Source: Actinomycetota bacterium (GTDB taxonomy: Bacteria; Actinomycetota; Coriobacteriia; Anaerosomatales; JAENZW01). Taken from it: 55,314 nt of DNA. The position numbers and the translations under genes are program-made. Positions 49,838 through 53,523 of this stretch are shown one piece after another (the first letter of the stretch is position 1; every line of letters starts with the position of its first letter). The stretch spans positions 1-55,314 of the forward strand of contig JAENZW010000003.1 of assembly GCA_016841065.1 (NCBI GenBank), read 5' to 3'. Under the pieces are notes generated by a model. The model searched no databases. It was not told the origin of the DNA and saw only the letters and a program-made list of their open reading frames with translations.

Positions 49838-50394
49838 CAACCCGCTCCCGCCAACGCCTCATCACGAACAGTGGCGACGAAGGGTAGGTTCCGATACAGG
49901 CCGTTGACGTCCAGCCCGTAGCCGACCACGAATCTATCGGGTATCGAGAACCCCCTGTACGTGATGGGCAGGTCCACGATTCGACGGACATCCTTGTCGA
50001 GCAGGGTGCAGACCTCGAGCGTCGCGGGCTGACGTTCCTTGAGCATTCGCAGAATGTAGTTGAGCGTGAGTCCTGTGTCGACGATGTCCTCGACGACGAT
50101 TACCGACGCTCCCTCGATCGAGTCGTCGAGATCCTTGGTCACTCGCACCACGCCGGGGCGTCCGCCCACATACGACGAAACCGCCATGAAGTCCACTTGG
50201 AGCGGCAGGTCTATCGCCCTACATAGATCGGCCAGGAAGATCAGACCGCCGCGCAAGATCGTAATGAGCCGAACGTCCCGTCCTTGATGATCGTGCGCGA
50301 TCGACGCTCCGAGTTCGGCTACGCGCGCCGTGATCTGCTCCTCGGTGACGAGAACGCGCTCGACAAGCGACTCGGGTGCCTTCGGCGATGCCAT
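49837..50394 (-). CDS. hpt: Hypoxanthine phosphoribosyltransferase
   Basis: The 185-residue enzyme makes IMP (and GMP) from hypoxanthine (or guanine) and PRPP. It has the LITILRGGLIFLADL segment, the PRPP motif VIVVEDIVDTGLTL and the C-terminal PDRFVVGYGLD motif. hpt is often paired with tilS and ftsH; here it is instead in a minus-strand cluster with a nuclease-like gene, MerR and FHA genes. Its ATG shares one base with the stop codon of the preceding gene. Confidence 0.96.
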   Translation of the reverse strand: MASPKAPESLVERVLVTEEQITARVAELGASIAHDHQGRDVRLITILRGGLIFLADLCRAIDLPLQVDFMAVSSYVGGRPGVVRVTKDLDDSIEGASVIVVEDIVDTGLTLNYILRMLKERQPATLEVCTLLDKDVRRIVDLPITYRGFSIPDRFVVGYGLDVNGLYRNLPFVATVRDEALAGAG

Positions 50395-50828
50395 CAGCCT
50401 CTGCCGTCTTCCGGCGGGACTGCAGTCAGCCCGCCGCCCTCTCCGTGAGTCTGCTCCTCGACGGGAATCCCGAACTTCAGTAGCAGGTTCCGGAAGTCGC
50501 GCTGGTAGAAGATCTTGATGTGCACCTCGGGATAGAGCTCCCTCAAGCGCCGCACCTTCTTGTTCTTCTTTGTGACGAGCTTCTGGCTCATCGTTGTGAG
50601 TTCGATGTAGAGGTCAAGCTCCGGAAGGTAGAAGTCCGGGGAGAACGATGCCACGACGTTGCCTTTTCCGTCCCACTCAAGCGGAAACGTCGTAGGCTCG
50701 TACTCCCACTGGATGCGATAGAAGTCGAGAATCTCGGCTGCGACCCTCTCGCTCGGGTGCGCAAACTGGATCTCATCGATCCGTCTCGATCCCGCGGTCT
50801 CCCGCTCGTGTGCGTCAGCCTCGACCAT
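50394..50828 (-). CDS. Unknown protein with PD-(D/E)XK nuclease-like core
   Basis: In the 144-residue protein the middle part SPDFYLPELDLYIELT has the order Asp, about ten residues, Glu-x-Thr that resembles a PD-(D/E)xK catalytic core. The usual Lys is replaced by Thr, but a run of lysines (KLVTKKNKKVRRL) follows on the next helix, as in some members with a shifted Lys. A Glu in the first helix (ERVAAEILDFY) would complete the site. The function is unknown; DNA or RNA cleavage is possible. It is packed between hpt and the MerR gene with a 1-base overlap. Confidence 0.6.
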   Translation of the reverse strand: MVEADAHERETAGSRRIDEIQFAHPSERVAAEILDFYRIQWEYEPTTFPLEWDGKGNVVASFSPDFYLPELDLYIELTTMSQKLVTKKNKKVRRLRELYPEVHIKIFYQRDFRNLLLKFGIPVEEQTHGEGGGLTAVPPEDGRG

Positions 50829-50833
50829 CGCTC

Positions 50834-51541
50834 CTACATCAGGTCTTCGAACGTGGTTCCGAGTGCCCGCCGGAGAAGCTGTGTCTTGAGGTCACCCGTC
50901 AGCATCATGAGCTCCTGGAGCGTGTCCTTCAGCTTCTGACGCGTCTCCGGTGTGCGGTGCCTGAACGCAGGCATGAGAATCTGCGAGAAGAATGCCGCCT
51001 CTCGTTCGGCCAGCGTCTCATACATGCGAAGATGACGCGGCTCGATACCGAAACGTCGCAGATCCCAACAGGCGTGGGCGACCTGCACATCCGACTTCGA
51101 GAGCTCCTCGCCTTCCGTTCCCTGGACGACCGTGACGAGTCCGAACTCCGTCAGCTCGTCGATGAAGGACTTCGGAAGACCCAGAACGGACGGAACATCC
51201 TCCAGCTTCACGCTTTCGGTATCCTCGAAAGGCAAAGCAACAGCCTCAGATGAACCCGAGACAGCTGGACGCAACTCAACCGGTACCTTGCCTCGATCGT
51301 AGTCCTTGAGCTTCTCGCGGATGACGGCGAGTGGAAGAAAGTGCTCCTTCTGTAGCCGAAGGACGAGATCAACGCGAGCAACATCGGCTTGGGTGAACTT
51401 GCGATAGCCTCCCGCCGTGCGTTCTGGCGATACCAGACCCTCTTCTTCGAGGAATCGGACCTTTGAGATCGACAGGTCCGTGTAGGTTGCGGACAACTTG
51501 TCGACAACTTCGCCGATGGTCAGGTAGTCCCGTCGGGCCAC
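50834..51541 (-). CDS. MerR-family regulator of the FtsR type
   Basis: The 235-residue protein begins with a MerR winged helix (TIGEVVDKLSATYTDLSISK, then VRFLEEEGLVSPERTAGGYR), has a coiled helix, and a long C-terminal domain that is not a known effector domain. Placement right behind an FHA gene is the garA-merR arrangement of actinobacteria (Rv1827-Rv1828), where the MerR protein, called FtsR in corynebacteria, activates ftsZ. The GTG start at 51541 lies 4 bases after the FHA stop. An ftsZ regulatory role is inferred from family and position only. Confidence 0.85.
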   Translation of the reverse strand: MARRDYLTIGEVVDKLSATYTDLSISKVRFLEEEGLVSPERTAGGYRKFTQADVARVDLVLRLQKEHFLPLAVIREKLKDYDRGKVPVELRPAVSGSSEAVALPFEDTESVKLEDVPSVLGLPKSFIDELTEFGLVTVVQGTEGEELSKSDVQVAHACWDLRRFGIEPRHLRMYETLAEREAAFFSQILMPAFRHRTPETRQKLKDTLQELMMLTGDLKTQLLRRALGTTFEDLM

Positions 51542-51545
51542 TACC

Positions 51546-51992
51546 TCACGCGCCCTTTCCGGCGAGGAAGACCATCTGGAACATGCCGATCTGCACAACG
51601 TCTCCACTTGCCAACAGAGCCTTGTCAACACATACCCCGTTGACATACGTGCCGTTCAACGAACCGGCATCCTCTATCTCGACCTCGCCGGCCACGTTTC
51701 CGAGCACCGCGTGGTGCCGAGACACCGTCACGTCGTTCAGGAAGATATCGCTACGTGGATCGCGCCCGACCGTCAGGCGCTCGCGATCCACGTAGAATCG
51801 CTCGCCAACCTCCGCGCCCTTGCGAACCACAAGTACCGGACCCTCGTCGATCTCCACATCCATAGGTGTCGGACTCGCGGAGGCAACGACGGGTTCGAAC
51901 GACTGGGTAGCGCCCTCGACACGCGCACCGCAGTCGGGGCACGTCGTGGCTCCGGACGGAGTCTGTGTGCCGCATCTCGGACAGTCGGTCAT
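51546..51992 (-). CDS. Zinc-ribbon FHA-domain protein (GarA position)
   Basis: The 148-residue protein has an N-terminal zinc ribbon with Cys4, Cys7, Cys18 and Cys21, a linker with Thr29 and Ser residues, and a C-terminal FHA domain with GRDPRSDI, SRHHAVL and SLNGTYVNG, the phosphothreonine-binding residues. GarA and OdhI are short FHA proteins that control 2-oxoglutarate metabolism when not phosphorylated; they have a phospho-Thr tail rather than a zinc ribbon. Here the ribbon replaces the tail, so the partner could differ. It precedes the MerR gene. Confidence 0.88.
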   Translation of the reverse strand: MTDCPRCGTQTPSGATTCPDCGARVEGATQSFEPVVASASPTPMDVEIDEGPVLVVRKGAEVGERFYVDRERLTVGRDPRSDIFLNDVTVSRHHAVLGNVAGEVEIEDAGSLNGTYVNGVCVDKALLASGDVVQIGMFQMVFLAGKGA

Positions 51993-52029: not shown

Positions 52030-52290
52030 TCAGTCGGTGAAACCGAATTCGCGGCGCTGAAACGACGCCGATATCTCTTCCTCCAGCGCGGAAACGACCT
52101 CTGGGTTCTCGAGCACGTGTGCGAGCTTCTCGTCGCTCAACCGGTTCTTGACGTACGGATCCTTGAGCGTCTCGGTCAGCTTGCGACCGTTCCGGACCTC
52201 GCGAATCACATACTCGATCACGCGTTCTTCAACGGCATCGTGAGCGAGGTCGTCCATGAAGCTCTGCAGCTTGTCGGAAATCGTCGACAC
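52030..52290 (-). CDS. Small helical protein of unknown function
   Basis: The 86-residue soluble protein is almost fully helical and charged, with ERVIEYVIREVRNGRKL and LAHVLENPEVVSALEEEI. GTG 52290 follows AAGGAGG at ideal spacing, which argues strongly for a real gene; the longer frame upstream is rejected. I do not recognise the family. It lies between the RsiG-like and FHA genes, all in one direction with short gaps. Confidence 0.75.
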   Translation of the reverse strand: MSTISDKLQSFMDDLAHDAVEERVIEYVIREVRNGRKLTETLKDPYVKNRLSDEKLAHVLENPEVVSALEEEISASFQRREFGFTD

Positions 52291-52333: not shown

Positions 52334-52654
52334 CTACTCGTCGTCCTCGTTGTCCTCGAAGTCGTCTTCGGCGACGTCGACGTTCGATACCCCGCGCAAG
52401 TCATTTGCGAGAATACCGATCAGTCTGTCGACATCCGTCGCTGAGATGACGTCATCTCCAGACTCACGCTGAGACTTCAGCCTGCGGACGAGCTCTGCGC
52501 GCAAGATGTCGATCTTTCCGTGCAGAACCCTTCTGCGATACGAGATGCGCTGCTCCTCTTCGTGCAGGTCATTGAGCAGCCCCCTGATGTCCTCGTTCGA
52601 CTTGTCCTCGAGGTTCAGAAGCGCCTTATCGATTCGTTCATCCCGGTCGGACAT
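52334..52654 (-). CDS. RsiG-like coiled-coil protein with a c-di-GMP-type motif
   Basis: The 106-residue protein is a long helix-turn-helix hairpin with an acidic tail (EDDFEDNEDDE). Residues 34-49 give Glu34-x3-Ser38-x2-Arg41-x3-His45-x3-Asp49. The c-di-GMP motif of RsiG, the anti-sigma factor of WhiG in Streptomyces, is E(x3)S(x2)R(x3)Q(x3)D, so only Gln-to-His differs. One motif is present, as in simpler RsiG proteins that work as homodimers. The surrounding SYRRR and RAELV residues also fit this family. No sigma factor gene is in the window. GGAGGGG precedes the ATG, and ATTGTA at 52690-52695 may be the -10. Confidence 0.72.
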   Translation of the reverse strand: MSDRDERIDKALLNLEDKSNEDIRGLLNDLHEEEQRISYRRRVLHGKIDILRAELVRRLKSQRESGDDVISATDVDRLIGILANDLRGVSNVDVAEDDFEDNEDDE

Positions 52655-52737: not shown

Positions 52738-53523
52738 TCACACTTCTCCGACAGGTTCGACTATCGTCTGCCCGGCGAGTGCCTCGGCAAGACAGATCTC
52801 GTGATCTGTGAGCTCGCCTGCCACGAGTTCGATTCCCAGGGCATCTGCCCACCCTTCGGCTATGAGTGCGCACAGCTCATCCCAATGACGCGAGTCGGAC
52901 GTCAGGTCCGAAAGCGTCAGCGATCCGGCCGCCAATTCGTCTCGTGCCCGGGGAGAGAGGCCGAATACTCGCGCCTCCCTGTCGATGTCCCGGGAGACTA
53001 TGAACGAACCGTGCTGCAAGACGGTGTCGTGAAGCCACACCTGTGCGCTGCCGGAGAGTTTGGCCTCGCCGCACGATACATCGGCCGAAGTGGCGTGAAG
53101 ATAGCATGCCGCGCTGCCGCGTCTCCCGCGAGCCCTGTCGGTCAGCTGCGCCGACACACCAAGCCGCCCGTATGCAGCCACGATACCGGAGCACAGATGC
53201 GCGTAGCTCGCGCTCGTCCCGCGCGGCACATCATCAGCCAGCGACGCGACGCAGGAGTAGGTCACCTCGTCGTCGTGCAGCACACCCCTGCCCCCGGTGT
53301 AGCGCCGCACCACATCCACACCCAGGACATCGCACGCAGCGAAGTCGACGTCGGTCGACTTCTGGAAACGGCCGATCGTCACAGTCGGTCGAAGCCAGCC
53401 GTAAAGCCGCAGGGTCGGCGGCACGCGATTCTCGCGGCGGGCGATCTGGATGGCTCGATCGATAGCCATGTTCCGGTTTCCCGCATCTCGCCCATGCGAG
53501 ATGAGACGCCACTTGGGAGCCAT
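52738..53523 (-). CDS. lplA: Lipoate--protein ligase A family protein
   Basis: A BPL/LplA-fold enzyme of 261 residues that attaches lipoate or octanoate to carrier proteins such as GcvH. It has RRYTGGRGVLHDDEVTYS (canonical RR(x)TGGG(x)VxHD, with the third Gly as Arg) and the catalytic Lys in AKLSGSAQ. ATG 53523 starts 8 bases after the gcvPB stop, and the context points to lipoylation of the glycine cleavage H protein. Whether it acts as ligase or as octanoyl transfer enzyme (LipM-like) cannot be told by eye. Confidence 0.9.
   Translation of the reverse strand: MAPKWRLISHGRDAGNRNMAIDRAIQIARRENRVPPTLRLYGWLRPTVTIGRFQKSTDVDFAACDVLGVDVVRRYTGGRGVLHDDEVTYSCVASLADDVPRGTSASYAHLCSGIVAAYGRLGVSAQLTDRARGRRGSAACYLHATSADVSCGEAKLSGSAQVWLHDTVLQHGSFIVSRDIDREARVFGLSPRARDELAAGSLTLSDLTSDSRHWDELCALIAEGWADALGIELVAGELTDHEICLAEALAGQTIVEPVGEV

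Follow-up and report, generated by a model that had tools for sequence, protein, structure and literature searches.

Among sigma/anti-sigma pairs, RsiG-WhiG has been described as the only one known to be a target of cyclic di-guanosine monophosphate (c-di-GMP) (PMC8325347). In Streptomyces, where the complexes 6pfj and 6pfv represent the system, RsiG is a monomer that carries two copies of the c-di-GMP motif and controls sporulation, and the phosphodiesterase RmdB displaces it from WhiG (PMC13232838). In Rubrobacter radiotolerans, a unicellular, non-sporulating bacterium, RsiG has a single motif and the RsiG-WhiG switch controls type IV pili; the WhiG promoters at the Rubrobacter pilus genes were found with the flagellar consensus (-35 TAAA, -10 GCCGATAA), and single-motif RsiGs were reported only from Rubrobacteria and Thermoleophilia (PMC8325347). 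Here we analyze a 55,314-nucleotide stretch (hereafter, the window) of an Actinomycetota bacterium from the order Anaerosomatales of Coriobacteriia, a class without RsiG in that study (PMC8325347), and describe a predicted single-motif RsiG of 106 amino acids encoded in it, together with a WhiG and a set of conserved WhiG-type promoters in the same genome (the source genome).

The 106-residue open reading frame matches the RsiG-like Pfam family PF22802 with 66.3 bits (E 1.9e-18, gathering cut-off 27) and is the only RsiG detected by profile search in the source genome. Its top PDB matches are the single-motif RsiGs of R. radiotolerans (7lq2, 7lq3 and 7lq4; E 1e-10, with 45 residues alignable), followed by the RsiG of S. 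venezuelae (‘AmfC’, 6pfj; E 5e-8), and its nearest relatives come from metagenome-assembled Coriobacteriia and Anaerosomatales, the best of them being 91% identical. The AlphaFold model of the monomer (predicted template modelling score 0.50) consists of a long helix (residues 20-64) flanked by helices 3-13 and 72-87; the fold search with this model gave no significant match, a lone long helix being uninformative in this respect. We confidently predict, on the strength of the profile and PDB matches, that this is a genuine RsiG of the single-motif type, the proposed ancestral, homodimeric form. This agrees with the original prediction, made from the DNA alone, which described a short RsiG-like protein with one c-di-GMP motif.

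Residues 34-49 (EQRISYRRRVLHGKID) fit the pattern E(x3)S(x2)R(x3)[Q/H](x3)D. Only one such motif is present: the second motif helix is missing from the translation, and the model has only one long helix. A chance occurrence of the motif is ruled out by the RsiG profile score and the PDB matches. His45, where R. radiotolerans RsiG has Gln, had been taken to render the motif merely near-canonical, a qualification that has to be dropped because the first-motif Gln of RsiG is frequently replaced by His, which is able to make an equal stacking contact (PMC8325347). All five residues are invariant among 23 diverse aligned single-motif RsiGs. The motif pattern was found at 96 of the 97 rsiG loci, a count that is biased for the named lineages, where the loci were located with query-derived patterns that took in the motif helix, and unbiased for the class sample, which was located by profile (loci L015-L044). 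Two RsiG homologues of twin length (L305 and L306) keep the motif pattern in one helix only, a possible partial loss.

The original prediction further stated that no WhiG-type sigma factor was nearby. This is true of the window, where none is encoded near rsiG, but not of the source genome (2.34 Mb in 292 contigs, 95.6% complete), in which a single sigma factor on another contig exceeds the FliA/WhiG cut-off of TIGR02479 (C94:25423-26097; 282.3 bits, cut-off 189.6); two further sigma-70-type factors match this profile below the cut-off, with 137 and 110 bits. The presence of WhiG rules out the idea that RsiG acts on another target for want of WhiG. The whiG gene lies between xerC and, past a response-regulator gene, rpsB, and the nearest solved relative of its product is S. 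venezuelae WhiG (326 bits). In the latter, K57, G61 and R62 contact c-di-GMP in both solved complexes. The corresponding K...GR residues are retained in the source-genome WhiG, which reads VKYVAGR at the contact site, whereas the aligned FliA reads VKRIAYH and thus lacks the G and the R. The sequence VK(Y/F)VAGR is found in 28 of the 30 other WhiGs of the order (29/31 with the source-genome WhiG), the remaining two not having been located by the pattern. The source genome also encodes 16 GGDEF domains, some of them fused to an HD domain of the HD-GYP type, and these fusions are taken as evidence of putative phosphodiesterases. Two of the conditions under which the original prediction was to be abandoned, a lack of profile similarity to RsiG and a genome devoid of GGDEF/EAL proteins, are thus contradicted by the strong profile match and by the GGDEF domains.

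To the extent that the sampled genomes represent the class (300 genomes, 69 of them from Anaerosomatales, formerly OPB41, and 231 others), both proteins are confined to this order. RsiG exceeds the cut-off in 65 of the 69 order genomes and in none of the 231 others, two of which have sub-threshold matches; the corresponding counts for WhiG are 66/69 and 0/231. Every order genome has at least one of the two. Because both are order-wide traits, this co-occurrence represents agreement between the two distributions rather than many independent events. The occurrence of RsiG in Coriobacteriia is new, as far as the accessible literature shows.

With the flagellar-type promoter allowed at most one mismatch, the 69 order genomes yielded 260 sites, compared with 110 in a reversed control, and most of the exact matches lie a short distance ahead of a gene for a type IV pilin with the N-terminus GFTLVELMVVVLIIGILVAIAIPVFN. 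In the source genome, such a promoter (C211:3792-3818) is located 76 base pairs (bp) before pilA in a pilB-pilC-pilA-pilD-...-pilM cluster. When pilA loci were picked by protein similarity alone, the exact element T-N-AAG-N14/15-GCCGATA was present within 200 bp of the pilA start at 17 of the 27 loci scored (leaving aside three that could not be parsed) and, with at most one mismatch, at 25 of the 27, at 47 to 87 bp from the start, compared with four exact occurrences on both strands of 1.8 Mb of background from the same lineages. A first, more permissive scan of the source genome (up to two mismatches) returned 44 sites, with 22 in the reversed control; chance accounts for most of them, and only those at pilA and at the flgM-like gene described below were carried on, by virtue of their conservation. 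In one relative, an exact match 32 bp upstream of an open reading frame for a 478-residue membrane protein resembling sensor histidine kinases (G005:C1:311483-311509, L208) suggests further members of the WhiG regulon.

FlhA is absent from all 69 order genomes, and, judging by gene content, no flagellum is expected in the order. Two cultured isolates, Anaerosoma and Parvivirga, are non-motile and carry pili-like appendages, which in one of the strains appear only when ferrihydrite is present (PMC9686372), and the description of the lineage as one without aerial development is supported. The output of WhiG in these non-swimming subsurface bacteria would most likely be type IV pili, in a probable parallel to Rubrobacter.

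The second conserved WhiG-type element of the source genome (C79:51715) precedes a gene for a small FlgM-like protein, P0007, followed by a second pilB; an additional gene of this kind under a WhiG-type promoter distinguishes the system from that of R. radiotolerans. Relatives of P0007 are encoded in 56 of the 69 order genomes. T-N-AAG-N15-GCCGATA precedes the gene in 29 of 30 loci, as two nearly invariant blocks separated by an unconserved 15-bp spacer, and the order nuoN, promoter, flgM-like gene, pilB holds in most loci. As only about 7-11 bp lie between the element and the start codon, the mRNA may have almost no leader. No Pfam family matches P0007 itself; FlgM PF04316 is matched at E<=1 by 9 of 15 aligned members (best 1.3e-5), its cut-off is passed in 2 of the 69 order genomes, and the top PDB match of the family profile is FlgM (E 0.022). 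As the curated FlgM cut-off is not reached, the protein is named FlgM-like here rather than FlgM. The arrangement resembles the FliA-FlgM flagellar checkpoint in that a sigma factor of the WhiG/FliA clade is accompanied by a FlgM-like gene with a promoter for that sigma factor, and differs from it in the absence of FlhA, in the mostly sub-threshold FlgM similarity and in the location beside pilB. The combination of a FlgM-like gene and a WhiG-type promoter in the absence of FlhA appears to be new, so far as can be judged from the literature accessible to us; no relevant paper connecting FlgM to WhiG and type IV pili turned up in a search that did not reach most subscription papers.

Very probably, then, c-di-GMP-loaded RsiG sequesters WhiG, freed WhiG drives pilA as well as the flgM-like gene with pilB, and the FlgM-like protein serves as a second inhibitor. 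The sequence data show the family membership and motif of RsiG, the WhiG partner with its c-di-GMP contact residues, the c-di-GMP enzymes, and the conservation of the promoters and of the operon. By homology, RsiG would form an antiparallel homodimer, with a c-di-GMP dimer held by its two E-S-R-H-D motifs, and the loaded form would bind the WhiG of the source genome; we infer dimerisation, the binding of c-di-GMP and WhiG, and the use of the promoters by analogy with the Rubrobacter and Streptomyces complexes. A drop in c-di-GMP would free WhiG for transcription from T-N-AAG-N14/15-GCCGATA, that is, of the major pilin gene pilA and of the flgM-like gene followed by the second pilB, and the FlgM-like protein would presumably feed back on WhiG and may damp its activity.

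The neighbours of rsiG (Table 1), correctly described in the original prediction as genes for a small helical protein, a zinc-ribbon FHA protein and an FtsR-like MerR regulator, bear on a different interpretation. The order rsiG, zinc-ribbon FHA gene, ftsR, on one strand, was observed at every single-motif locus with intact flanks that we examined in Anaerosomatales, Aquicultor, Solincola and related lineages, Solirubrobacterales, and genomes with an RsiG close to that of R. radiotolerans. The nearest sampled relative of the R. radiotolerans protein (L171), with 96% identity over 45 residues, is among these; the small helical protein inserted in the operon here is a difference from the Rubrobacter system. 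In a comparison of 20 further loci from many families, covering about 4 kb on either side of rsiG, this order was present at 10 of 10 single-motif loci and, in contrast, at 0 of 10 with twin-motif or longer genes. Because the order follows single-motif RsiG in this manner, the link between rsiG and ftsR represents real synteny. As a mark of single-motif RsiG, the rsiG-FHA-ftsR operon is, within the accessible literature, new; nothing relevant on RsiG together with FtsR was found there, most subscription papers being out of reach.

A functional link of RsiG to FtsR and the FHA protein is possible, gene order being its sole basis, and division control is unproven. The original prediction went further and proposed a c-di-GMP input to growth or division control. 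Under this scenario, RsiG, the zinc-ribbon FHA protein and FtsR would constitute a module for growth or division that responds to c-di-GMP, WhiG being no more than a side target, if a target at all. The conservation of the gene order on one strand from Rubrobacter to Thermoleophilia, Aquicultor and Anaerosomatales suggests, by its depth, more than accident. We nevertheless consider such a module unlikely: FHA-FtsR pairs without RsiG occur in other actinobacteria; the genome has a canonical WhiG that retains the residues for contact with RsiG/c-di-GMP, and WhiG accompanies RsiG throughout most of the order; the WhiG-type promoters that are conserved lie at genes for type IV pili; and WhiG is the demonstrated target of R. 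radiotolerans RsiG (PMC8325347), whose closest sampled relative has the same operon.

Several observations weigh against control of pili by RsiG through WhiG. The rsiG and whiG genes are not linked chromosomally, and a single gain in the ancestor of the order may account for their joint presence. For the five known single-motif RsiGs, glycine-rich linkers have been described on both sides of the coiled-coil helix; in the window RsiG, G66, C-terminal to the long helix, is invariant in the alignment, whereas the N-terminal side of the helix has no glycine. The predicted control of pili in the source strain rests on promoter matches, and the FlgM-like protein could be the main regulator of WhiG. 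In its strongest form, the last possibility would reduce RsiG to a relic or a weak regulator without productive c-di-GMP binding. The presence of the flgM-like gene in most order genomes, with its near-invariant promoter, and the location of rsiG and whiG on different contigs are compatible with such a relic, but the five c-di-GMP-contacting positions are invariant over a large divergence and rsiG is kept almost throughout the order, which argues for selection on RsiG and makes its loss of function highly improbable. Least probable of all, in our estimation, is that the GCCGATA elements at pilA and the flgM-like gene are read by another regulator or sigma factor, such as the two sub-threshold sigma-70-type factors, with the WhiG regulon lying elsewhere, given that the flagellar/WhiG consensus applied to Rubrobacter is this same element (PMC8325347) and that only one sigma factor of the source genome exceeds the FliA/WhiG cut-off.

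There is also a broader proposal, the arguments for and against which we regard as evenly balanced. One WhiG would be subject to two unrelated inhibitors, RsiG armed with c-di-GMP and the FlgM-like product of a WhiG-dependent gene beside pilB, so that a flagellar-style checkpoint would have been rewired to type IV pili in an order without flagella; in addition, the ancestral rsiG would have left the rsiG-FHA-ftsR operon upon its internal duplication. In every lineage examined, the single-motif state is tied to one gene order and the twin-motif state to its absence, which provides independent evidence on the evolution of RsiG. The predicted single-motif, proposed ancestral form of RsiG-WhiG is hereby extended beyond Rubrobacteria and Thermoleophilia to another class, one with cultivable, pilus-bearing members (Anaerosoma and Parvivirga) and with a concrete pilA promoter now available for testing. 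It may be asked whether, and by what, the inhibition that the FlgM-like protein may exert is relieved in these flagellum-less bacteria.

Table 1. Features of the rsiG locus in the window and the FlgM-like gene of the source genome
Feature	Position	Strand	Evidence or remark
rsiG, single-motif RsiG, 106 residues, predicted c-di-GMP-dependent anti-sigma factor for WhiG	52334..52654	-	Pfam and PDB matches, AlphaFold model
c-di-GMP signature E34-x3-S38-x2-R41-x3-H45-x3-D49	52508..52555	-	translation; conservation in relatives
86-residue helical protein, GTG start, between rsiG and the FHA gene	52030..52290	-	conserved position; no family
Zinc-ribbon and FHA protein, GarA/OdhI-like FHA domain	51546..51992	-	PF00498 66.7 bits, PF13240 26.7 bits
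ftsR, MerR-family transcriptional regulator FtsR	50834..51541	-	NCBIfam NF050798 212.4 bits, cut-off 150
144-residue conserved protein after ftsR; not claimed as part of the switch	50394..50828	-	same place in nearly all order loci
Lipoate-protein ligase-like gene; not claimed as part of the switch	52738..53523	-	PF21948 97.9 bits
FlgM-like gene (P0007), 87 residues	source-genome contig C79, L232:6753-7016		WhiG-type promoter; relatives match FlgM

In Corynebacterium and Mycobacterium, the gene for the FHA protein GarA/OdhI is likewise followed by ftsR. Here, in contrast, rsiG lies ahead of the pair and the FHA protein begins with a zinc ribbon; this protein scores 112 bits against the GarA/OdhI equivalog NF041660, under the cut-off of 200. 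The 86-residue protein matches no Pfam or NCBIfam family above the cut-off; its AlphaFold model is all helical (predicted local distance difference test score 82.8), with no significant fold match in the PDB. Only part of the single-motif lineages, namely Anaerosomatales, Aquicultor and a few more, have this protein, which contains an invariant core, EER...Y...E...GR.L...DP. Upstream of rsiG, separated by an 83-bp gap, the lipoate-protein ligase-like gene keeps its position across the order. The 144-residue protein encoded after ftsR has no Pfam or NCBIfam family, and its sequence SPDFYLPELDLYIELT...KNKKVRRLRELYP recalls, by eye, the PD-(D/E)XK nuclease fold.
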